In this document: positions 2,350 through 40,933 of the stretch, one piece after another
How the letters are laid out: the number at the start of each line of letters is the position of its first letter
How positions within the stretch are numbered: position 1 is the stretch's first letter
Origin: Candidatus Kuenenia stuttgartensis
GTDB lineage: Bacteria; Planctomycetota; Planctomycetia; Pirellulales; UBA1268
Direction: 5' to 3'
DNA: 43,234 nucleotides
Assembly (NCBI GenBank): GCA_945890755.1
Contig: CAMDDA010000006.1
Location: forward strand, 1-43,234
Made by a program: the position numbers and the translations under genes
The notes under the pieces: generated by a model
What the model saw: the letters and a program-made list of their open reading frames with translations, nothing else
The model's database searches: none
Told to the model about the DNA's origin: nothing

Positions 2350-3138
2350 ATGGCCGAATTCGTGAAGGTTGCGAACGTCTCCGAAGTGCCCGATCCGGGC
2401 AAGACGCTCGTCGAGGTCGATGGCGAGATGGTGGCCCTGTTCCACGTCGACGGGCAGTGGCATGCGATCGACGACGTCTGCACGCACGACGGCGGCCCGC
2501 TGGCCGACGGCGAGCTCCGCAATCACACGATCTCCTGTCCGCGGCACGGAGCGAAGTTCGATATCCGCACCGGTGCCGCCCTCACGATGCCGGCCATCCG
2601 GCCGACGCGGGCCCACGACGTGAAGGTCGAAGGGGCCACGGTGTTCGTGCGGCTTCGGGAAGAGCCCGGGTCCGCCGGCCCGGCAGCCCATGCGTTGCCG
2701 ATCCAGGCGACGGGAACGGCCGGCTCGGCGCAGGTGGCGGCGTCCGTGCCTGCGGCCGCCACGCCCGGGGCGGCAACTGCGTCCGCGACAGCCGCTGCAT
2801 CCCCGGCGGCCGGCCAGCCGCTCTGCGAGGATGCCGTTCGCGAACTGCTCAAGGACGTGAAGGACCCCGAGCTCTTCGTCAACATCGTCGACCTCGGTCT
2901 CATCTACGGCGTGACGCTCTCTCCGGCCGCCGATACCGGCGGCAAGCAGCACGTGGCGATCGACATGACGATGACGAGCCCGGCCTGCCCTGCCGGTCCG
3001 CAACTGATCGGCGACACGAAGCGGGTGCTGGCCGCCCATCCGGAGGTCTCGGCCGTCGAGGTGCGGATCGTCATGGATCCTCCCTGGACCCCCGACCGCA
3101 TGACCGAAGCCGCCCGCGACCAGCTCGGGATCTTCTAA
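2350..3138 (+). CDS. Fusion protein: N-terminal Rieske [2Fe-2S] domain plus C-terminal DUF59/MIP18 (SufT-like) domain
   Basis: CTH...CPRH Rieske ligands, Ala/Pro-rich linker, then LLKDVKDPELFVNIVDLGLIYGV...TSPACPAG...PPWTPDRM. ORF track starts at 2131 but ATG at 2350 begins the Rieske domain. Confidence 0.9.
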   Translation: MAEFVKVANVSEVPDPGKTLVEVDGEMVALFHVDGQWHAIDDVCTHDGGPLADGELRNHTISCPRHGAKFDIRTGAALTMPAIRPTRAHDVKVEGATVFVRLREEPGSAGPAAHALPIQATGTAGSAQVAASVPAAATPGAATASATAAASPAAGQPLCEDAVRELLKDVKDPELFVNIVDLGLIYGVTLSPAADTGGKQHVAIDMTMTSPACPAGPQLIGDTKRVLAAHPEVSAVEVRIVMDPPWTPDRMTEAARDQLGIF

Positions 3139-3174
3139 TGCGGCCCGCAGCAGGTTGACCTCCTGTGGCGGAGT

Positions 3175-3214
3175 TCGGGGCTGCCCACGCCCCGTCGCCG
3201 GACGCTCGCTGAGG
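3175..3214 (+). repeat. Family C hairpin repeat, copy 1
   Basis: ttCGGGGctgcccacgCCCCGtcgCCGGACGCTCGCTgagg; near-identical to 10815-10855. Confidence 0.7.
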
Positions 3215-3394
3215 TAGCGCAGGTAAAAGGTGCGTCACCGGCTCGGGAGCGGTACAAGTCTCGTCGCGGGACCTCGAAGACTCGGTCCAAATGCTCCTCG
3301 AGCTTGCACCGACCCCCTTGCCTCCCTGGCTGCGCTCGGCGGCATACGCCGGCGACGGGGCACGGGCAGCCCCTCACGGCCGTATTCGCGAACT

Positions 3395-3445
3395 GTAGGC
3401 CCGTTGCTCCGCAACGGGCTGCCCGTCACGGAGTGACGGGCCTAC
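3395..3445 (+). repeat. Family B two-hairpin element, complete 51-bp copy
   Basis: GTAGG-CCCGTTGC-TCC-GCAACGGG-CTG-CCCGTCAC-GGA-GTGACGGG-CCTAC. Confidence 0.9.
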
Positions 3446-3465
3446 GTCAGGCAACGGGCAGCCCC

Positions 3466-4083
3466 TCACGGCGTCGTGGTTGGCAGCAGGCTGCGGATTT
3501 CAGCCTCGACGTCGGCGTAGGTGAACGGCCGGCCGAGCCGGCGGGCTGCGTCGTCGTCGTCGAACCGGCGGGCGAGCGTGCCGTCGGGCTTCCAGACGTA
3601 AACGGCCGGGATGCTCACGAGGTCGAGCTTCTCGTAAAGCGAGTCCGCGTCTTCCTTCGTGAGCATGTTCTCGATCCCGCCCGCGCCGACCTTCTCCAGG
3701 AACGACCGCACCGGCGGCAGGACCTCCTCGGGGGTGCCGAGGCCCTCGTAGTCGAAGGAGATGGAGAGGCAGGCCACCTGATCGCGATACTTCTGCGCCA
3801 GCGCGACGAGGCTCGGGAATTCCTTCACGCAGGGGGGGCACGACGTGCTCCAGCAGTCGAGCACGACGATCCGGCCGCGATGGCGCTCGACGGCCGCCAT
3901 CAGGCCGGCGTGATCGACGAGCGCGACGTCGATGGCCTGCGTGGCCGAGCGCGGCTCGACCGGTGCCGGTGCGGCCGTGGCGGCCGGCGGCGGCTGCGGA
4001 GGTGGCGAGCAGCCGGCGATCGGGCAGAATGCCAGACCAGCCGCCACGATCAGATGCCACGCGATGCCACGATTCGAGCACAT
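3466..4083 (-). CDS. TlpA-like thioredoxin-fold lipoprotein
   Basis: MCSNRGIAWHLIVAAGLAFCPIAGC lipoprotein-like signal, WSTSCPPC redox motif, VSIPAVYVWKPDG; start trimmed from 4317. Confidence 0.85.
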   Translation of the reverse strand: MCSNRGIAWHLIVAAGLAFCPIAGCSPPPQPPPAATAAPAPVEPRSATQAIDVALVDHAGLMAAVERHRGRIVVLDCWSTSCPPCVKEFPSLVALAQKYRDQVACLSISFDYEGLGTPEEVLPPVRSFLEKVGAGGIENMLTKEDADSLYEKLDLVSIPAVYVWKPDGTLARRFDDDDAARRLGRPFTYADVEAEIRSLLPTTTP

Positions 4084-4579
4084 CAGGCACAAGCCTCCCG
4101 AGATCCTGCCGACGCCGCGCGAGCTCGTCGTCGCCTGCGCGGCGATGCGCAGCCATGTCAATCTCTCGCATATCGTACGGACCTGCGGCTGTTTTGGCAT
4201 CCGCCGCGTGATCGCCTGCGGCGCGGCCCGGCTGCATGAGCGGATCGCCCGCGACGGCGCCGAGTCGGTGGTGCTCGACGTGCATCGCAGCCTGCCCCCC
4301 GTGCTCGACCGGCTCAAGGCCGAGGGCTATCAGCTCGTGGGCCTCGAGCAGACGACGCATTCGGAGCGGCTGTTTTCGTTTGCGTTCGCGCCACGGACGG
4401 TGCTGGTGATCGGCAACGAGCGGACGGGGCTGGAGCCCGACGAGCTCGTGCGGCTCGACCGCGTGGCCGAGATTCCGATGGCCGGGATGCCCCACAGTCT
4501 CAATGCCGCCACGTCCACGGCGATCGCGGTCTATGAATACTGCCGCCAGCATCCGGTGGCCGTGGGGATTGCACCGTGA
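4064..4579 (+). CDS. SpoU/TrmH-family RNA 2'-O-methyltransferase
   Basis: RSHVNLSHIVRTCGCFGI, VLVIGNERTGLEPDEL, IPMAGMPHSLNAATSTAIAVYEY motifs. Confidence 0.9.
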   Translation: MPRFEHIRHKPPEILPTPRELVVACAAMRSHVNLSHIVRTCGCFGIRRVIACGAARLHERIARDGAESVVLDVHRSLPPVLDRLKAEGYQLVGLEQTTHSERLFSFAFAPRTVLVIGNERTGLEPDELVRLDRVAEIPMAGMPHSLNAATSTAIAVYEYCRQHPVAVGIAP

Positions 4580-7721: not shown

Positions 7722-7740
7722 GCGCTGGCGCGGGGACGCT

Positions 7741-7884
7741 CATACAAGCCCTGAGCGCGAGCGCCGGGATTCCTCCGCGCGCGATCCCCCGGCTTGCGCC
7801 TGGGGGCTTTTATGGGAGGGGATCTCCTGGCTTGCGCCTGGGGCTTTTGACGCTCATACAAGCCCTGAGCGCGAGCAACGGGAT
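7741..7884. repeat. Family A repeat cluster (A2 + orientation at 7741-7770 and 7855-7884; A1 - orientation at 7783-7814; degenerate A1 at 7821-7848)
   Basis: catacaagccctgagcgcgagcgccgggat / gatcccccggcttgcgcctgggggcttttatg copies. Confidence 0.85.
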
Positions 7885-7942
7885 TCCGTCGCCCCACGGC
7901 AGGCGTCATACTCGGGGGCTCGCCGCAGGCACTCCGACGCAC

Positions 7943-17556: not shown

Positions 17557-17958
17557 ATGATCACCACCGCCACTCGTCCGCCGCGCGACACCGTGATCTA
17601 CGACGGACACTGTCGGTTTTGTCGCAGCCAGATCGCAGTGCTTCGTCGGCTGGATCTGGGCGGCAGTCTCGAGTTTGTATCGCAGCACGACCCGAGCGTG
17701 CCGCGGGACTATCCGGAACTGTCGGCGGATGATCTGCACGCGCAGATGTTCGTGATCGACCGCGCCGGTCGGGCTCGTGGCGGCGCCGAGGCGGTGCGGT
17801 ATCTATCGCGGCGGCTGCCTTTGCTGTGGCCGCTCGCGGTGTTGCTGCACGTGCCGGGCAGCCTGCCGGTGTGGTCGGCGGCGTACCGATTCGTGGCCCG
17901 CCATCGCTTTCGTATCGCCGGCAGTTGCGACGACGGCACGTGCCGGCTCCCGCCGTGA
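17557..17958 (+). CDS. DCC-family thiol-disulfide oxidoreductase (DUF393)
   Basis: VIYDGHCRFCRSQIAVLRRLD with CXXC, C-terminal WSAAYRFVARHRFRI. Confidence 0.88.
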   Translation: MITTATRPPRDTVIYDGHCRFCRSQIAVLRRLDLGGSLEFVSQHDPSVPRDYPELSADDLHAQMFVIDRAGRARGGAEAVRYLSRRLPLLWPLAVLLHVPGSLPVWSAAYRFVARHRFRIAGSCDDGTCRLPP

Positions 17959-17961
17959 GGA

Positions 17962-18187
17962 ATCCCCCGGCTTGCGCCTGGGGGCTTGTATGGGGACGAA
18001 TTCGCCCGCTTTCATACAAGCCCTGAGCGCAAGCGCGGGGATGCGGTGGCCAGGAACGTGATCCCCCGGCTTGCGCCTGGGGGCTTGTATGGGGACGAAT
18101 TTGCCCGCTTTCATACAAGCCCTGAGCGCAAGCGAGGGGATGCGGCTGCCAGGAACGCGATCCCCCGGCTTGTGCCTGGGGGCTTCC
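17962..18187. repeat. Tandem 99-bp composite array of family A hairpins (A1 - orientation at 17962, 18061, 18160; A2 + orientation at 18013-18042 and 18112-18141)
   Basis: atcccccggcttg(c/t)gcctgggggctt at exact 99-bp spacing with shared spacer ggggacgaatttgcccgctttcatacaagccctgagcgcaagcg. Confidence 0.93.
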
Positions 18188-18198
18188 TTGCGACGTGC

Positions 18199-19257
18199 TT
18201 ATTCGGCGTCGGCTGCGTCGTCGGCGTCCGGAGCACCGATGTCCTTCAGCAGCCGCGTCATCGTGTTGGCGTGCACGCCGAGCAGCTTCGCGGCCCGGGC
18301 CTTGTGGCCGCGGGTGATCTCGAGGGCTTCTTTGATCGCCTGCTCACGCAGCTTGGCGAGATCGAGGCAGGGAAGCTTGCCAGAGGACACCTGCGCGACC
18401 GAACGCACGGGCACTTTCGGCTCGGTCTGCAGCACATACGCCTGCTCGATCGCGTGCTCCAGCTGCCGCACGTTGCCCGGCCACTGGAAGCTGCAAAATT
18501 CCGCCAGGGCATCGGCGCTCGGCTCCCAGACGGGCAGGCGATACCGATCTGCGAACTTCTGGGCGAAGAACTCGATGAACTGCGGGATGTCTTCCTTCCG
18601 CTCGCGGAGCGGCGGCACCCGTAATTCGATCATGTTGAGACGGTAGTAGAGATCCTCGCGGAACGTCCCCTTCTCGACCTCCTGCTCGAGGTCGCGATTG
18701 GTGGCCGCGACGATCTGCACGTCGATCGGCACGGGCTCCGTGGCACCGACGGGAATCACCTCGCGCTGCTGGAGCACGCGGAGCAATTTGGGCTGCAGTT
18801 CGGGCGGCATCTCCCCGATCTCGTCGAGGAACACCACGCCTCCCTGGGCGGCGCGGAAGATGCCCAGCGAGCGGCCGGCGGCGCCGGTGAACGCGCCCTT
18901 CTCGTGACCGAAGAGCTGGCTCTCGGCAAGCGTCGGCGTGAGCGCGGCGCAATTGACGGGGATGAATGCCTTGGAGCGGCGTGGGCCACTGCGATGCAGG
19001 AGCCGTGCCCAGAGTTCCTTGCCGGTGCCGGTCTCGCCGCTGACGAGCACGGTGCACTCGACTTCGGCGGCGCGTTCGATCGACTTCGCGATCCGCCGCA
19101 TTGCGGCGTTCGATCCCAGCACCCAGTTCGAGGTCGGGGCGACGGCGGGTGATTTCACGCCACGGTCATCGACGGCGATCGCCGGATCGAGCGACCCACC
19201 GCGCGGATCGCGTCCAGCCGATTCGCTCGCGCGGAAGCTTAGTGGGCGAATGGCCAT
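18199..19257 (-). CDS. Sigma-54-dependent transcriptional activator (NtrC-type AAA+ with C-terminal Fis-like HTH, no receiver domain)
   Basis: GETGTGKELWARLLH, GHEKGAFTGA, FLDEIGEM, PPLRERKEDIPQF, WPGNVRQLEHAIEQA, C-terminal HTH ALEITRGHKARAAKLLGVHANTMTRLL. Confidence 0.92.
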   Translation of the reverse strand: MAIRPLSFRASESAGRDPRGGSLDPAIAVDDRGVKSPAVAPTSNWVLGSNAAMRRIAKSIERAAEVECTVLVSGETGTGKELWARLLHRSGPRRSKAFIPVNCAALTPTLAESQLFGHEKGAFTGAAGRSLGIFRAAQGGVVFLDEIGEMPPELQPKLLRVLQQREVIPVGATEPVPIDVQIVAATNRDLEQEVEKGTFREDLYYRLNMIELRVPPLRERKEDIPQFIEFFAQKFADRYRLPVWEPSADALAEFCSFQWPGNVRQLEHAIEQAYVLQTEPKVPVRSVAQVSSGKLPCLDLAKLREQAIKEALEITRGHKARAAKLLGVHANTMTRLLKDIGAPDADDAADAE

Positions 19258-20196: not shown

Positions 20197-20231
20197 GGTG
20201 GAAGTGTAGCGGAACGTGGGATCCCCTCGCT

Positions 20232-20302
20232 CATACAAGCCCCCAGGCGCAAGCCGGGGGATCGATTCTGCATACAAGCCCCCAGGCGCAAGCCGGGGGA
20301 TT
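20232..20302 (+). repeat. Family A1 hairpins, two tandem + orientation copies (20232-20263, 20271-20302)
   Basis: catacaagcccccaggcgcaagccgggggat twice. Confidence 0.92.
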
Positions 20303-22286: not shown

Positions 22287-22422
22287 TGCAGCAACTCCCT
22301 GCAAGACATCCTGGGTGTCATCCGGCCTGCGGTGCCTGGTGCAGGCGGGCGGGGAAGGTAGGGAGCGGCGGCCTTGGCCGCAAGACCGCAGGCAGGCTGC
22401 AAAATCGGTGCTTCGTCTTGCG

Positions 22423-22580
22423 CAGGCCTGTTGCTCCGCAACGGGCAGCTCGGTTCTGTAGGCCTGTTGCTCCGCAACGGGCAGCCCGGTTCTGTAGGCC
22501 TGTTGCTCCGCAACGGGCAGCCTGGTTCCGTAGGCCTGTTGCTCCGCAACGGGCAGCTCGTCACGGAGTGACGGGCCTAC
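22423..22580 (+). repeat. Family B tandem array: four left-arm hairpins at 36-bp period plus one terminal right arm
   Basis: (c/t)aggcctgttgctccgcaacgggcag... at 22423, 22459, 22495, 22531, then tcgtcacggagtgacgggcctac. Confidence 0.93.
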
Positions 22581-23882: not shown

Positions 23883-23920
23883 AGGGAGCAGGATAACAAG
23901 CCGCCGACCGCGGCGAGTCC

Positions 23921-24038
23921 AATACAAGCCCCCAGGCGCAAGCCGGGGGATCCCCTCGCTTCATACAAGCCCCCAGGCGCAAGCCGGGGGATTTCGTTGC
24001 GGAACCCCGGATCCCCTCGCTCGCGATCAGGGCTTTTA
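23921..24038. repeat. Family A hairpins: A1 + copies at 23921-23952 and 23962-23992, diverged A2-like - copy at about 24010-24038
   Basis: aatacaagcccccaggcgcaagccgggggatc and tcatacaagcccccaggcgcaagccgggggat. Confidence 0.88.
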
Positions 24039-24068
24039 TTGGGGACGGGGAATCGTGCCGCTTGCCCG

Positions 24069-30396: not shown

Positions 30397-31443
30397 ATGG
30401 ATTGTTCCAAGCTGCTGCCGATCGCCTGCCTGCTCGTGGCCGTCGCCGGGATTCCGGGACGAGCCGTCGGGCAGTCTCCGCCGTCGGCCGACGCCCGTCG
30501 CTACGTCATCGCCGACGCGCTCTTTCTGCAGCGGAACAACGCCACCCGCGAACAGGCCCTCGTGGTGAATGCCACCGATACGAACGTGCCGGTGGTGACT
30601 GCGAACGGCCTCGACTCACAGATCGGCACAGGCGTCCGGCTGCTCTACGGCGACTACGGCTGCGACAGCCTCGGCTGGGAAGTCGGCTACACCGGCATCT
30701 ACGGCATGGACGTCGATCGCTGGTTCGAGAGCGATGGCGACATCCTCCAGGCCGGCGGAGAGCCCGGGTTCGCGGAAGCCACCGGCCTGATCGATGGCCA
30801 GCGGGCTGATGTGTCATACCGATCGCAGATCAACTCACTCGAAGCGAATACGGTCTTCAACTCGTTCGATGGCGGCCGCGATCGCCGGTCGCCCTATCCG
30901 TGGCAGCGGAGCCCCGGCTACGAAGGAGGCCACGTCGACTGGCTCCTGGGTGTCCGCTGGGCCGGCCTCGAGGAGGCGGCCCAGATGGCGATCACGCCAG
31001 GTGGCTATCCGACGGCCAACACCTACGACGTGCAGGCGAGCTCCAATCTCTTCGCGGCGCAGGTTGGCACCCGCGGCCGCTGGGCCTGGCAGAACTGGGC
31101 CTTCGAAGGCTGGATGAAGATCGGCCTCGCCGGCAGCGTGCTCTCGCAGTCGCAGTCGATGTTCGACCAGCTCGCGCCCGGGGACCCGTTCCGTTCGCCA
31201 CGGTCGAGCGATGACCTCGGCATGGGCATGATCGCCGACATGAATGCGTCGCTGATCTACCGCCTCACCGACACCTGGGGTCTGCGGCTCGGCTACAACC
31301 TGTTCTGGCTCACGGGAGTGGCCCTCGCCCCCGACTCCTGGGATCTCACGACGAACACCGGCCCCGACGCCGGCACGGAGATCCGCAGCACCGGCAGCGT
31401 GTTTCTCAACGGTGCGAATGTCGGCCTCGAGGCCCGCTGGTAG
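30397..31443 (+). CDS. BBP7-like outer-membrane beta-barrel protein
   Basis: Signal peptide MDCSKLLPIACLLVAVAGIPGRAVGQ; Gly/Tyr/Trp-rich beta-strand pattern; C-terminal RLTDTWGLRLGYNLFWLTGVALAP...NGANVGLEARW. The 28174 start in the ORF track is read-through. Confidence 0.75.
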   Translation: MDCSKLLPIACLLVAVAGIPGRAVGQSPPSADARRYVIADALFLQRNNATREQALVVNATDTNVPVVTANGLDSQIGTGVRLLYGDYGCDSLGWEVGYTGIYGMDVDRWFESDGDILQAGGEPGFAEATGLIDGQRADVSYRSQINSLEANTVFNSFDGGRDRRSPYPWQRSPGYEGGHVDWLLGVRWAGLEEAAQMAITPGGYPTANTYDVQASSNLFAAQVGTRGRWAWQNWAFEGWMKIGLAGSVLSQSQSMFDQLAPGDPFRSPRSSDDLGMGMIADMNASLIYRLTDTWGLRLGYNLFWLTGVALAPDSWDLTTNTGPDAGTEIRSTGSVFLNGANVGLEARW

Positions 31444-31560
31444 GCCCGTTGCTCCGCCCCTCGTAGGCCCGTTGCTCCGCCCCTCGTAGGCCCGTTGCTC
31501 CGCCCCTCGTAGGCCCGTTGCTCCGCAACGGGCAGCCCGTCACGGCGTGACGGGGATACG
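31441..31560 (+). repeat. Family B tandem array: three truncated 23-bp left-arm units followed by one complete element
   Basis: taggcccgttgctccgcccctcg at 31441, 31464, 31487; full element from 31510 ending cagcccgtcacggcgtgacggggatacg. Confidence 0.93.
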
Positions 31561-33166: not shown

Positions 33167-33199
33167 GAATCAGTTGCGGCGGTCGGGCTGACGCCCGAT

Positions 33200-33308
33200 A
33201 TCCCCCGGCTCGCGCCTGGGGGCTTTTATGAGGAGTATCCCCCGGCTCGCGCCTGGGGGCTTCCTTCGACTCTCGGCATAGAAGCCCCCATGCGCAAGCA
33301 GGGGGATC
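33200..33308. repeat. Family A1 hairpins: two - copies (33200-33230, 33237-33264; GCGA loop) and one + copy (33277-33308; compensated stem TGC/GCA)
   Basis: atcccccggctcgcgcctgggggctt x2; catagaagcccccatgcgcaagcagggggatc. Confidence 0.9.
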
Positions 33309-35032: not shown

Positions 35033-36967
35033 ATGTCACATCAATCAGCTTTGATCGCCACCGACATCGACGAATACCTCGCTCAGCACGAGCGGAAGGA
35101 GCTGCTCAGGTTCATCACCTGCGGCAGCGTCGACGACGGGAAGAGCACGCTGATCGGTCGGCTCTTCTACGAGTCGAAGATGATCTACGAGGATCAGCTG
35201 GCGGCGATCGCCAAGGATTCATCGCGGTATGGCACGACCGGCGGCGAGGTCGATCTGGCGCTCTTCACCGACGGCCTCGAGGATGAGCGGCAGCAGGGCA
35301 TCACGATCGACGTGGCCTACCGCTACTTCTCGACCGACAAGCGGAAGTTCATCATCGCCGACACCCCCGGCCACGAGCAGTACACGCGGAACATGGCCAC
35401 GGGGGCCTCGACGGCCGACCTGGCGATCATCCTCATCGATGCCCGCCACGGCGTGCTCCCGCAGACGAAGCGACACTCGTTCATCGTGTCGCTGCTCGGC
35501 ATCAGGCACATCGTCGTGGCCGTCAACAAGATGGACATCGTCGGCTACGACCAGGCGGTGTTCGAACGGATCCGGGCCGACTACACCGACTTCGCCTCGC
35601 GGCTCGAGCTGCCCGACGTCCACTTCATGCCGATCTCGGCGCTCAAGGGCGACAACGTCGTGGCCCACAGCCCGAACATGCCCTGGTACACCGGCTCGCC
35701 GCTGATGCCGCTGTTGGAGACGGTCTACATCGGCTCCGACCGCAACATGGAAGACTTCCGGTTCCCAGTGCAGTTCGTGCTCCGGCCCAACCTCGACTTC
35801 CGCGGCTTCGCCGGCACCGTCGCCAGCGGCATCATCCGCAAGGGCGACGAGGTGCTGTCGCTGCCCTCGCGGAAGAAGAGCCGCGTGAAGAGCATCGTGA
35901 CGTTCGACGGCGAGCTGGAGGAGGCCTTCGCCCCGCAGTCGGTCACGCTCACGCTCGAGGACGAGATCGATTCCAGCCGCGGCGACATGCTCGTGCGGCC
36001 CGGCAACGTGCCGAAGGTCGATCACAAGTTCGATGCGATGGTCGTGTGGATGGCCGAGGAGCCGCTTGTGCCCGGCAAGCAGTATCTCTTCAAGCAGACG
36101 AGCAAGGTGGTGCCCGGCGCGGTCGGCTCGCTTCGCTACCGCGTCGACATCAACACCCTCCATCGCCAGCCGGCGCCCACGCTCGCCCTCAACGAGATCG
36201 GCCGCTGCGGCATCACGCTCACGAGCCCCATCGCCTACGACGCCTATCGCCGCAACCGGGCCACGGGCGGCTTCATCATGATCGATCGGCTCACGAATGC
36301 GACGGTGGCCGCCGGCATGATCCTCGACCGCGAGCCGGAGGACGGCAGCAAGGCCCACTGGGACGACGAGCCCGCCGCGGAGCACATGCAGGCGGTCGCC
36401 AGCGGCGTGAGCGACGAGGAGCGGGCGGCCCGGTTCGGCCAGCAGCCGGCGACGGTGCTGTTCACCGGGCTCACGGGCTCCGGCAAGACGACGCTCGCCC
36501 GGGCCGTCGAGCGGCGGCTCTTCGACATGGGGCGGGCGGTGACCGTGCTCGACGGCCAGTCGCTGCGGCTCGGCATCAGCCGCGACCTCGGCTTCTCGGC
36601 CGAGGAGCGGAGCGAGAACCTCCGCCGCGGTGTCGAGGTGGCGCGGATCCTCAACGACGCCGGACTCGTCTGCCTGGCGGCGTTCGTCGCGCCCGACGAA
36701 TCGGTGCGGCAGAAGGCGGCCGAGCGGGTGGGCCGCGGTCGGTTCATCGTGGTGCATCTCTCGGCGCCGGTCGAGGCCTGCCGGAAGCGGGACACCGACG
36801 GCACCTATGCCCGGGCCGACGCGGGCGAGATCGCCAACTTCCCCGGCGTCTCGGCCGCGTATGACGCGCCGGCCGCGGCCGATCTCGTGCTGCCGACGCA
36901 CGAGTGGCCGATCGGCAAGTGTGTCGATGCCGTCGTCGCGTTGCTCGAGGCCCGCGGGATCGTGTGA
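35033..36967 (+). CDS. cysNC: Bifunctional sulfate adenylyltransferase subunit 1 / adenylylsulfate kinase
   Basis: [43 protein letters not shown]-terminal kinase [20 protein letters not shown]...[28 protein letters not shown]. Confidence 0.97.
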
Positions 36968-37085
36968 GATCCCCCTGCTTGCGCATGGGGGCTTCTATGG
37001 TGCGGTCATGGGTGCGATCGTGCGCATGGGGGCTTCTATGGTGCGGTCAGGGGTGCTGTCGTGCGCACCGGCGCTTCTCTACGGC
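36968..37085 (-). repeat. Family A1 hairpin (36968-36999) and its decaying 41-bp tandem array
   Basis: gatccccctgcttgcgcatgggggcttctatg; tgcgcatgggggcttctatggtgcggtca at 36980 and 37021, degenerate copy at 37062. Confidence 0.88.
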
Positions 37086-39964: not shown

Positions 39965-40884
39965 TGGGCATGCTGACGCGCACGCCCCTGGGGCGGATGT
40001 GGGACGAGTGGCGGCACCGCGGGCACCAGGCGGGCGACGACGCCGAAGACTTCCTGCTCGTGACGTGGGACTCCTGCCGCTACGACGTCTACAGCGATGC
40101 CCACACGCCCGTGCTCGACCGCCATGGCCCGGCGCAGCGGGCCTGGGCGATGGCCACCTACACGCTGCCGGCGCATCAGGCGATGTTCAACGGCTTTTTG
40201 CCGCACGTGTTCGAGCCGCTGCCCTTCTACAACCGCTACGTGCAGCAGCTGTGGCGGATTTCCCACCGCAATCTCGCCGTGCGGCCGCTGGTGACGTTTC
40301 CGGAGGCCACGGTCAGCATCGTCGACGGCTTCCGCCGGCGCGGCTATGCCACGGTCGGCGTCGCGGCGATGGACTGGTTCGCGAAGCCGAGCCCGCTGCA
40401 GGACGGTTTCGAGTGGTTTCGCGTGACGGGCACGGCGGCCCGCGAGCAGGTGCGGCTCGTGTGCGAGCAGGTGGAGCGGCGGGCCCGCCGCCGGCCGTGC
40501 TTCGCCTTCATCAATTTCGGCGAGACGCACAGCCCGTTTCGGCACGCGGAGATGCCGCCCCTCGCGGCGGATCCCGTCGCCGAGCGGATGAGCCTCGGCC
40601 GGCTGTTCAACGCGGGAGGCGTGCCCGATGCGGCCGGCATGCTCGATCGTGGGCTTTGGGATCGGCAGCGGGAGTGTGCCGAATATCTCGATCGACGGAT
40701 GGCCGATCTCTTGGCCTGCTTCATCGCCCGTGGCCGCCCGACCACGGTGGTGGTGACGGCCGATCATGGCGAGTGCCTCGGCGAGCAGGGCCTCTTCGGC
40801 CATGCCTTCCATCACGAGAAGGTGATGGAGGTGCCGCTCCTCATCTTCCGGCTCAACGCGCCGCCGCACGCGCCGCCCGCGTAG
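39964..40884 (+). CDS. Sulfatase-like / alkaline phosphatase superfamily hydrolase
   Basis: FLLVTWDSCRYDVY metal site, TYTLPAHQAMFNGFLPH, VVVTADHGECLGEQGLFGHAFHHEKVMEVPLLI. Confidence 0.82.
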   Translation: MGMLTRTPLGRMWDEWRHRGHQAGDDAEDFLLVTWDSCRYDVYSDAHTPVLDRHGPAQRAWAMATYTLPAHQAMFNGFLPHVFEPLPFYNRYVQQLWRISHRNLAVRPLVTFPEATVSIVDGFRRRGYATVGVAAMDWFAKPSPLQDGFEWFRVTGTAAREQVRLVCEQVERRARRRPCFAFINFGETHSPFRHAEMPPLAADPVAERMSLGRLFNAGGVPDAAGMLDRGLWDRQRECAEYLDRRMADLLACFIARGRPTTVVVTADHGECLGEQGLFGHAFHHEKVMEVPLLIFRLNAPPHAPPA

Positions 40885-40933
40885 GCCCGTTGCCCAGCAA
40901 CGGGAGCGGCCCGTCACGGAGTGACGGGCCTAC
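40881..40933 (+). repeat. Family B two-hairpin element, complete copy
   Basis: GTAGGCCCGTTGC-CCA-GCAACGGG-AGCGG-CCCGTCAC-GGA-GTGACGGGCCTAC. Confidence 0.88.

Follow-up and report, generated by a model that had tools for sequence, protein, structure and literature searches.

The 51-bp element at positions 3395-3445 of the window raises two questions: what kind of sequence it is, and why its two halves, which are nearly inverted copies of each other, are not identical. The window is the whole 43,234-nucleotide stretch analysed, contig C6 of a planctomycete MAG (G000) of 3.44 Mb in 309 contigs. The nearest relatives of the LepA encoded in the window come from planctomycete MAGs, many of which are labelled Planctomycetaceae or Pirellulales. 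The letters of the element match those quoted in an initial annotation made from the sequence alone, and no chance matches to the 51 bp are expected at three or fewer mismatches. As described there, neither 8-bp stem contains a mismatch, and what distinguishes the arms is TG/CA on the one side, CA/TG on the other.

Two hairpin types in the window

Each half of the element consists of GTAGG, then an 8-bp stem with a TCC loop, then a closing C. The element is composed of two REP units, one of type A and one of type B, inverted so that their GTAG ends face outward. The type A unit is GTAGG-CCCGTTGC-TCC-GCAACGGGC, with the stem CCCGTTGC/GCAACGGG, and the type B unit is GTAGG-CCCGTCAC-TCC-GTGACGGGC, with the stem CCCGTCAC/GTGACGGG. 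Units in the window are as follows.

3395..3419, plus strand: type A REP, with GTAG tag, 8-bp stem CCCGTTGC/GCAACGGG plus an outer G-C, and TCC loop
3420..3420, no strand: spacer of 1 nt (T)
3421..3445, minus strand: type B REP, with GTAG tag, 8-bp stem CCCGTCAC/GTGACGGG, and TCC loop (GGA on the plus strand)
22422..22446, plus strand: type A REP, array unit 1, with degenerate head GCAGG and a CCTG stem variant with T-G wobble
22458..22482, plus strand: type A REP, array unit 2
22494..22518, plus strand: type A REP, array unit 3
22530..22554, plus strand: type A REP, left half of the full pair 22530-22580
22556..22580, minus strand: type B REP, right half of the full pair 22530-22580
31440..31508, plus strand: three tandem 23-nt truncated type A 5' halves (GTAGGCCCGTTGCTCCGCCCCTC)
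31509..31533, plus strand: type A REP, left half of the full pair 31509-31559
31535..31559, minus strand: type B REP, with degenerate tag (read GTATC) and loop GCC, pairing with 31509..31533
40881..40905, plus strand: type A REP, with loop CCA
40909..40933, minus strand: type B REP, partner of the type A REP at 40881

In the array at 22422-22580, A units recur every 36 nt, four in all, and a single B unit comes after them; the array at 31440-31559 has three truncated 5' halves, 23 nt apart, ahead of one full pair. Further copies of the element had been placed at 22423, 31441 and 40881. The last of these is a pair, with the reported CCA loop present in its A arm, whereas the first two coordinates mark the starts of half-element tandem arrays; the full pairs are at 22530-22580, 31509-31559 and 40881-40933.

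The neighbours of the pair at 3395-3445 are two convergent genes, one encoding a Rieske-domain protein and the other a thioredoxin-like protein. In other species of the genus, including the sister species G008, the genes to the left and right of the element (window 2400-4400) are on different contigs wherever both are found. The repeat cluster is therefore a break in synteny, whether through rearrangement or MAG assembly, and the orthologous site is unusable as an empty site.

A genome-wide family and its dimer rule

At two or fewer mismatches, 583 units are found in the 3.44 Mb, while a reversed-pattern control finds 0. Detailed pair statistics are based on a 1.74-Mb sample of the genome, comprising 101 stretches. 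In this sample the mismatch histogram is bimodal, with a sharp gap between family and background; 365 units are found at five or fewer mismatches and 0 by the reversed control. Removal of hairpins called on both strands, which had produced apparent homotypic pairs at a gap of -21, leaves 347 units. The GTAG tag occurs in 290 of these and the variants GGAG, GCAG or GTGG in 30, the loop is TCC in 321, and stems are 8-9 bp long. Clusters lie outside predicted genes in 133 of 141 cases, according to a home-made gene caller, and between convergent genes in 50 of the 117 that could be classified, an enrichment compared with 128 of 625 intergenic gaps. The family has the features by which REPs are recognised, namely GTAG directly 5' of a short hairpin, high copy number, and a mostly extragenic location. 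The initial annotation overlooked that GTAG followed by a hairpin is a REP signature, and also that a cognate RAYT gene exists.

Among GTAG-outward neighbour pairs, 116 of 117 combine an A with a B, where 10,000 shuffles of the labels give at most 78. The sole homotypic pair is degenerate, and its outer stems differ. The arms therefore stay clearly distinct across genomic copies, which the initial annotation had set as a check on its reading. These 117 inverted pairs form a repeated unit, the arrangement seen in BIMEs and REPINs. A REPIN in the strict sense, with identical arms that form one long hairpin, is not what is found, as the arms are unlike in all pairs except one. Neighbours facing GTAG-inward are heterotypic to homotypic in the ratio 9:0, and same-strand neighbours are homotypic by 71:5, so that each cluster carries A on one strand and B on the other. 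A single nucleotide separates the arms in 58 of the 116 pairs, and most of the others have a spacer of 3, 10 or 11 nt; 51 bp is consequently the commonest length of a pair, and others occur.

REP units are also seen at the contig ends of C5, C12, C15, C18 and C33. The genome is a fragmented MAG whose assembly is probably interrupted at the repeats, and the count of pairs would be somewhat low for this reason.

The associated transposase and comparison with known systems

Two genes of G000, on contigs C105 and C295, match Y1_Tnp. The first has the following position.

Contig C105 (L053), 3533 to 2862, minus strand: RAYT gene, 223 aa

The C105 protein contains the motifs MPNHVHVL (HuH) and ESYDHLVR (Tyr). 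It matches the NCBIfam model for REP-associated tyrosine transposase, NF047646, with E=2.8e-17 and 63 bits, below the curated cut-off of 80, and it scores just above the cut-off for Pfam Y1_Tnp. A search of the genome contigs with this protein returned no named relative, and a PDB sequence search returned no meaningful match. A/B pairs adjoin the gene on both sides, three downstream and one upstream, giving the REPtron arrangement of a Y1 HuH gene with its own REP family to either side.

RAYT classes have been described (PMC6006769). RAYTs from E. coli and other species recognise the single-stranded REP and not the iREP, with the GTAG essential and acting as a guide, and other RAYTs cut single-stranded REP at CT or CA (PMC8266576). 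A RAYT flanked by its own pairs, together with relatives that have REP pairs of their own, identifies this system as a BIME or REPIN with its REPtron. Our reading, to which we assign a probability of roughly 90%, is that the element is a REP heterodimer of the BIME/REPIN kind, copied as a unit by the C105 RAYT, in which the dinucleotide swap limits pairing between the arms. The C105 RAYT is most likely what mobilises the pairs. Under the proposed mechanism, two inverted GTAG-tagged hairpins would be copied genome-wide as one unit by this enzyme (TnpA_REP). On each strand, one arm would present GTAG and a TCC-loop hairpin 5'-to-3', which is the known single-stranded DNA substrate that RAYTs bind and cut, and the other arm would present the same on the complementary strand. 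The TG/CA swap would keep the hairpin of each arm perfect and weaken pairing between arms; local hairpins could then compete with the long hairpin in single-stranded DNA, and no perfect 51-bp palindrome would be formed.

An earlier study (PMC3733652, Di Nocera et al. 2013) described GTAG REPs and the heterodimers that they form head to head, and reported REPs from members of the PVC group, R. baltica among them. The pairs reported here resemble those heterodimers in having an outer GTAG tag, a 6-9-bp stem, a short loop, and inverted REPs with unlike stems. They share the intergenic location with a bias toward convergent or unidirectional gaps, and also the 1-2-nt spacers of some families, such as GTAG-17 of Opitutus terrae. 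The likeness to the 24 families listed in that source is one of arrangement. What differs is that the split is here quantified, at 116:1 within one genome. The preference for heterodimers had no obvious explanation in 2013, and protection from SbcCD was suggested (PMC3733652).

BIMEs of E. coli, in which Y is combined with Z1 or Z2 REPs, likewise contain inverted pairs of two REP types and form arrays, and the E. coli REPtron likewise has a single RAYT gene flanked by pairs (PMC6006769, PMC8266576). Unlike the E. coli REPs, which have a bulged stem and a body of 29-37 nt, the units here have perfect stems, a 3-nt TCC loop, and spacers mostly of 1-11 nt. Pseudomonas REPINs (Bertels and Rainey 2011, PMC3116915) are similar in that an inverted REP doublet is the unit, is extragenic, and is associated with a RAYT. 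However, the arms of Pseudomonas REPINs share an invariant 16-mer and form one long hairpin (PMC3116915), whereas the present pairs have unlike arms and a weakened long hairpin. Since GTAG REP heterodimers, REPINs and RAYTs are all known, the element represents a new family within a known kind, and its value lies in how strict and clear the dimer rule is, with a RAYT identified alongside it. That the two hairpins differ is a near-absolute rule, and it shows here with unusual clarity. With two sequence types, hundreds of units, a cognate RAYT, and related systems that differ at other positions, this clean AB case makes palindrome clearance, substrate availability and descent directly testable against each other.

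A second abundant repeat family, ATCCCCCGGCTTGCGCCTGGGGGCTTGTATG and CATACAAGCCCTGAGCGCGAGCG, lacks the GTAG tag and occurs in the window at 7735-7892, 17958-18209, 20229-20302, 23918-24039, 33189-33308 and 36965-37018. Repeats of this family stand to either side of the other Y1 transposase gene (C295, L054), with apparently unlike halves in inverted orientation. This family and the C295 gene may constitute a second, non-GTAG REPtron.

Why the two hairpins differ

The stems record which structure has been constrained. Ten double changes are compensated inside their own arm, where 2000 shuffles give 1.6 on average and 7 at most. Changes matched across arms, which would keep the long hairpin, were seen once, and shuffling gives 2.7 on average. 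Compensation thus occurs within arms and not between them, as the initial annotation anticipated, and it is the local hairpin that has been conserved. Uncompensated decay makes up most of the recent stem changes (248 one-sided cells), hybrid arms are rare, and T-G wobble variants are frequent, with 65 cells at one stem position.

Folding energies, which are model values for naked nucleic acid, show what the swap does. With DNA parameters at 37 C, the AB 51-mer has -22.9 kcal/mol as a long hairpin and -22.5 kcal/mol as two local hairpins. A hypothetical AA dimer has -34.3 against -23.0, and BB -33.3 against -22.0. The swaps do weaken the end-to-end hairpin, as first supposed: the forms of AB are near-equal, and in a homodimer the long form would be the more stable by about 11 kcal/mol. 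RNA parameters give -41.6 for the long form of AB and -33.3 for the local form, so that the long form is favoured by 8 kcal/mol. The long hairpin loses about 6-21 kcal/mol through heterotypy in each of the ten related families examined. These modelled energetics fit two possible benefits: the substrate stays accessible to the transposase, and no perfect 51-bp palindrome arises. Neither is proven.

Near-equality of the long and local DNA forms is what could commend the initial proposal of a three-way junction, loop-loop pair or bistable switch, in RNA or DNA. Yet the RNA parameters favour the long hairpin, and the GTAG/CTAC pairing that was supposed to close the whole element adds little. The TCC and GGA loops are complementary as claimed, but they are one TCC loop read on opposite strands, a by-product of inversion, and the match is trivial. 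With hundreds of copies at unrelated genes and no conserved context, we consider a switch highly improbable. A main role as RNA elements at gene 3' ends, stabilising or attenuating mRNA with mobility secondary, would agree with the enrichment between convergent genes, where the window copy also lies, and with the frequent wobble variants and strong RNA energies. However, few clusters occur in divergent gaps, which is expected if promoter insertions are selected against, and the orientation of A and B relative to genes is unbiased (23:19). No intrinsic terminator signature was found, a promoter explanation is likewise without support, and Rfam returned no family above cut-off for window 3000-3700, only sub-threshold chance matches. 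We judge such a role unlikely.

The other two explanations compete only with the heterotypy part of the preferred reading, and evidence from relatives bears on both. A RAYT match at 1e-20 or better occurs in 23 of 147 related genomes, G000 included. Many of these RAYTs, at about 40-45% identity, are surrounded by GTAG hairpins of their own, often with a TCC loop, as inverted pairs; no GTAG hairpin pairs were detected around about a third of the matches. The flanking pairs are mostly heterotypic, with arm differences that are compensated and fall at varying other stem positions, and those at L159 and L160 are nearly homotypic. Whole-genome counts of heterotypic to homotypic pairs are 5:0 in G077, 8:3 in G082 and 4:1 in G098; among the matches listed they are 15:0 in G016, 14:7 in G118 and 7:8 in G075. 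G016, of the same genus, has spacers mostly of 25 nt and no homotypic pair among the matches listed. Homotypic pairs are concentrated in families with spacers of 57-72 nt (homodimers 8 of 15 in G075 and 7 of 21 in G118, among the matches listed), so heterotypy is not a universal requirement. A link of short spacers with heterotypy has p=8e-8 when pooled with G000 and p=0.21 without it, and with spacer confounded with family it serves as a lead only.

Heterotypy could be a matter of descent only, one heterodimeric founder having been copied whole with no selection on the arm difference. Dimers are the usual form of the repeat, and arrays are enlarged by tandem duplication of single halves or whole pairs, with no inversion involved. 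No process of arm-to-arm conversion is seen, so that faithful copying could be enough to give 116:1. Against this, the compensated differences at other stem positions in related RAYT families suggest that heterotypy has arisen or persisted repeatedly, and G016 is also strictly heterotypic among the matches listed, though the spacer link falls to p=0.21 without G000. We give descent alone slightly under an even chance; selection in addition to descent may lie behind the strictness of the rule. One form of selection, already proposed for REP heterodimers (PMC3733652), is that perfect short-loop palindromes of about 50 bp would be cut or deleted, by an SbcCD-type nuclease or replication slippage. 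It would account for strict heterotypy with short spacers and common homodimers with 57-72-nt spacers, for the energetic cost to the long hairpin in ten of ten families, and for central loop-to-loop deletions at two orthologous sites in G008. But the pooled significance is driven by G000, with spacer confounded with family, and central deletions occur in heterodimers too, which leaves palindrome clearance a possibility somewhat weaker than descent. More tentatively still, and on balance doubtfully, the arm difference may be actively maintained in this RAYT lineage, with symmetric dimers lost and the pressure relaxing as the spacer lengthens. Two unlike, internally perfect hairpins would then be required, the kind of difference being free and its existence alone needed, and single-stranded DNA would be balanced between two states, the local hairpins that the transposase cuts and the long hairpin.

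Within the genus, the A/B family is found only in G000, G008 (82 units) and G011 (3 units) among 22 genomes. One near-clean empty site in G008 corresponds to a pair in G000, with an alignment that falls short of single-base precision. At L198:12073 and L202:403, the two orthologous G008 sites mentioned above, 29-nt remnants fuse a 5' half-arm to the 3' half of the opposite arm; the composition of these "double foot" hairpins suggests a loop-to-loop central deletion of the palindrome. The only RAYT match in G008 is diverged (38% identity), and units can therefore persist without the cognate gene.
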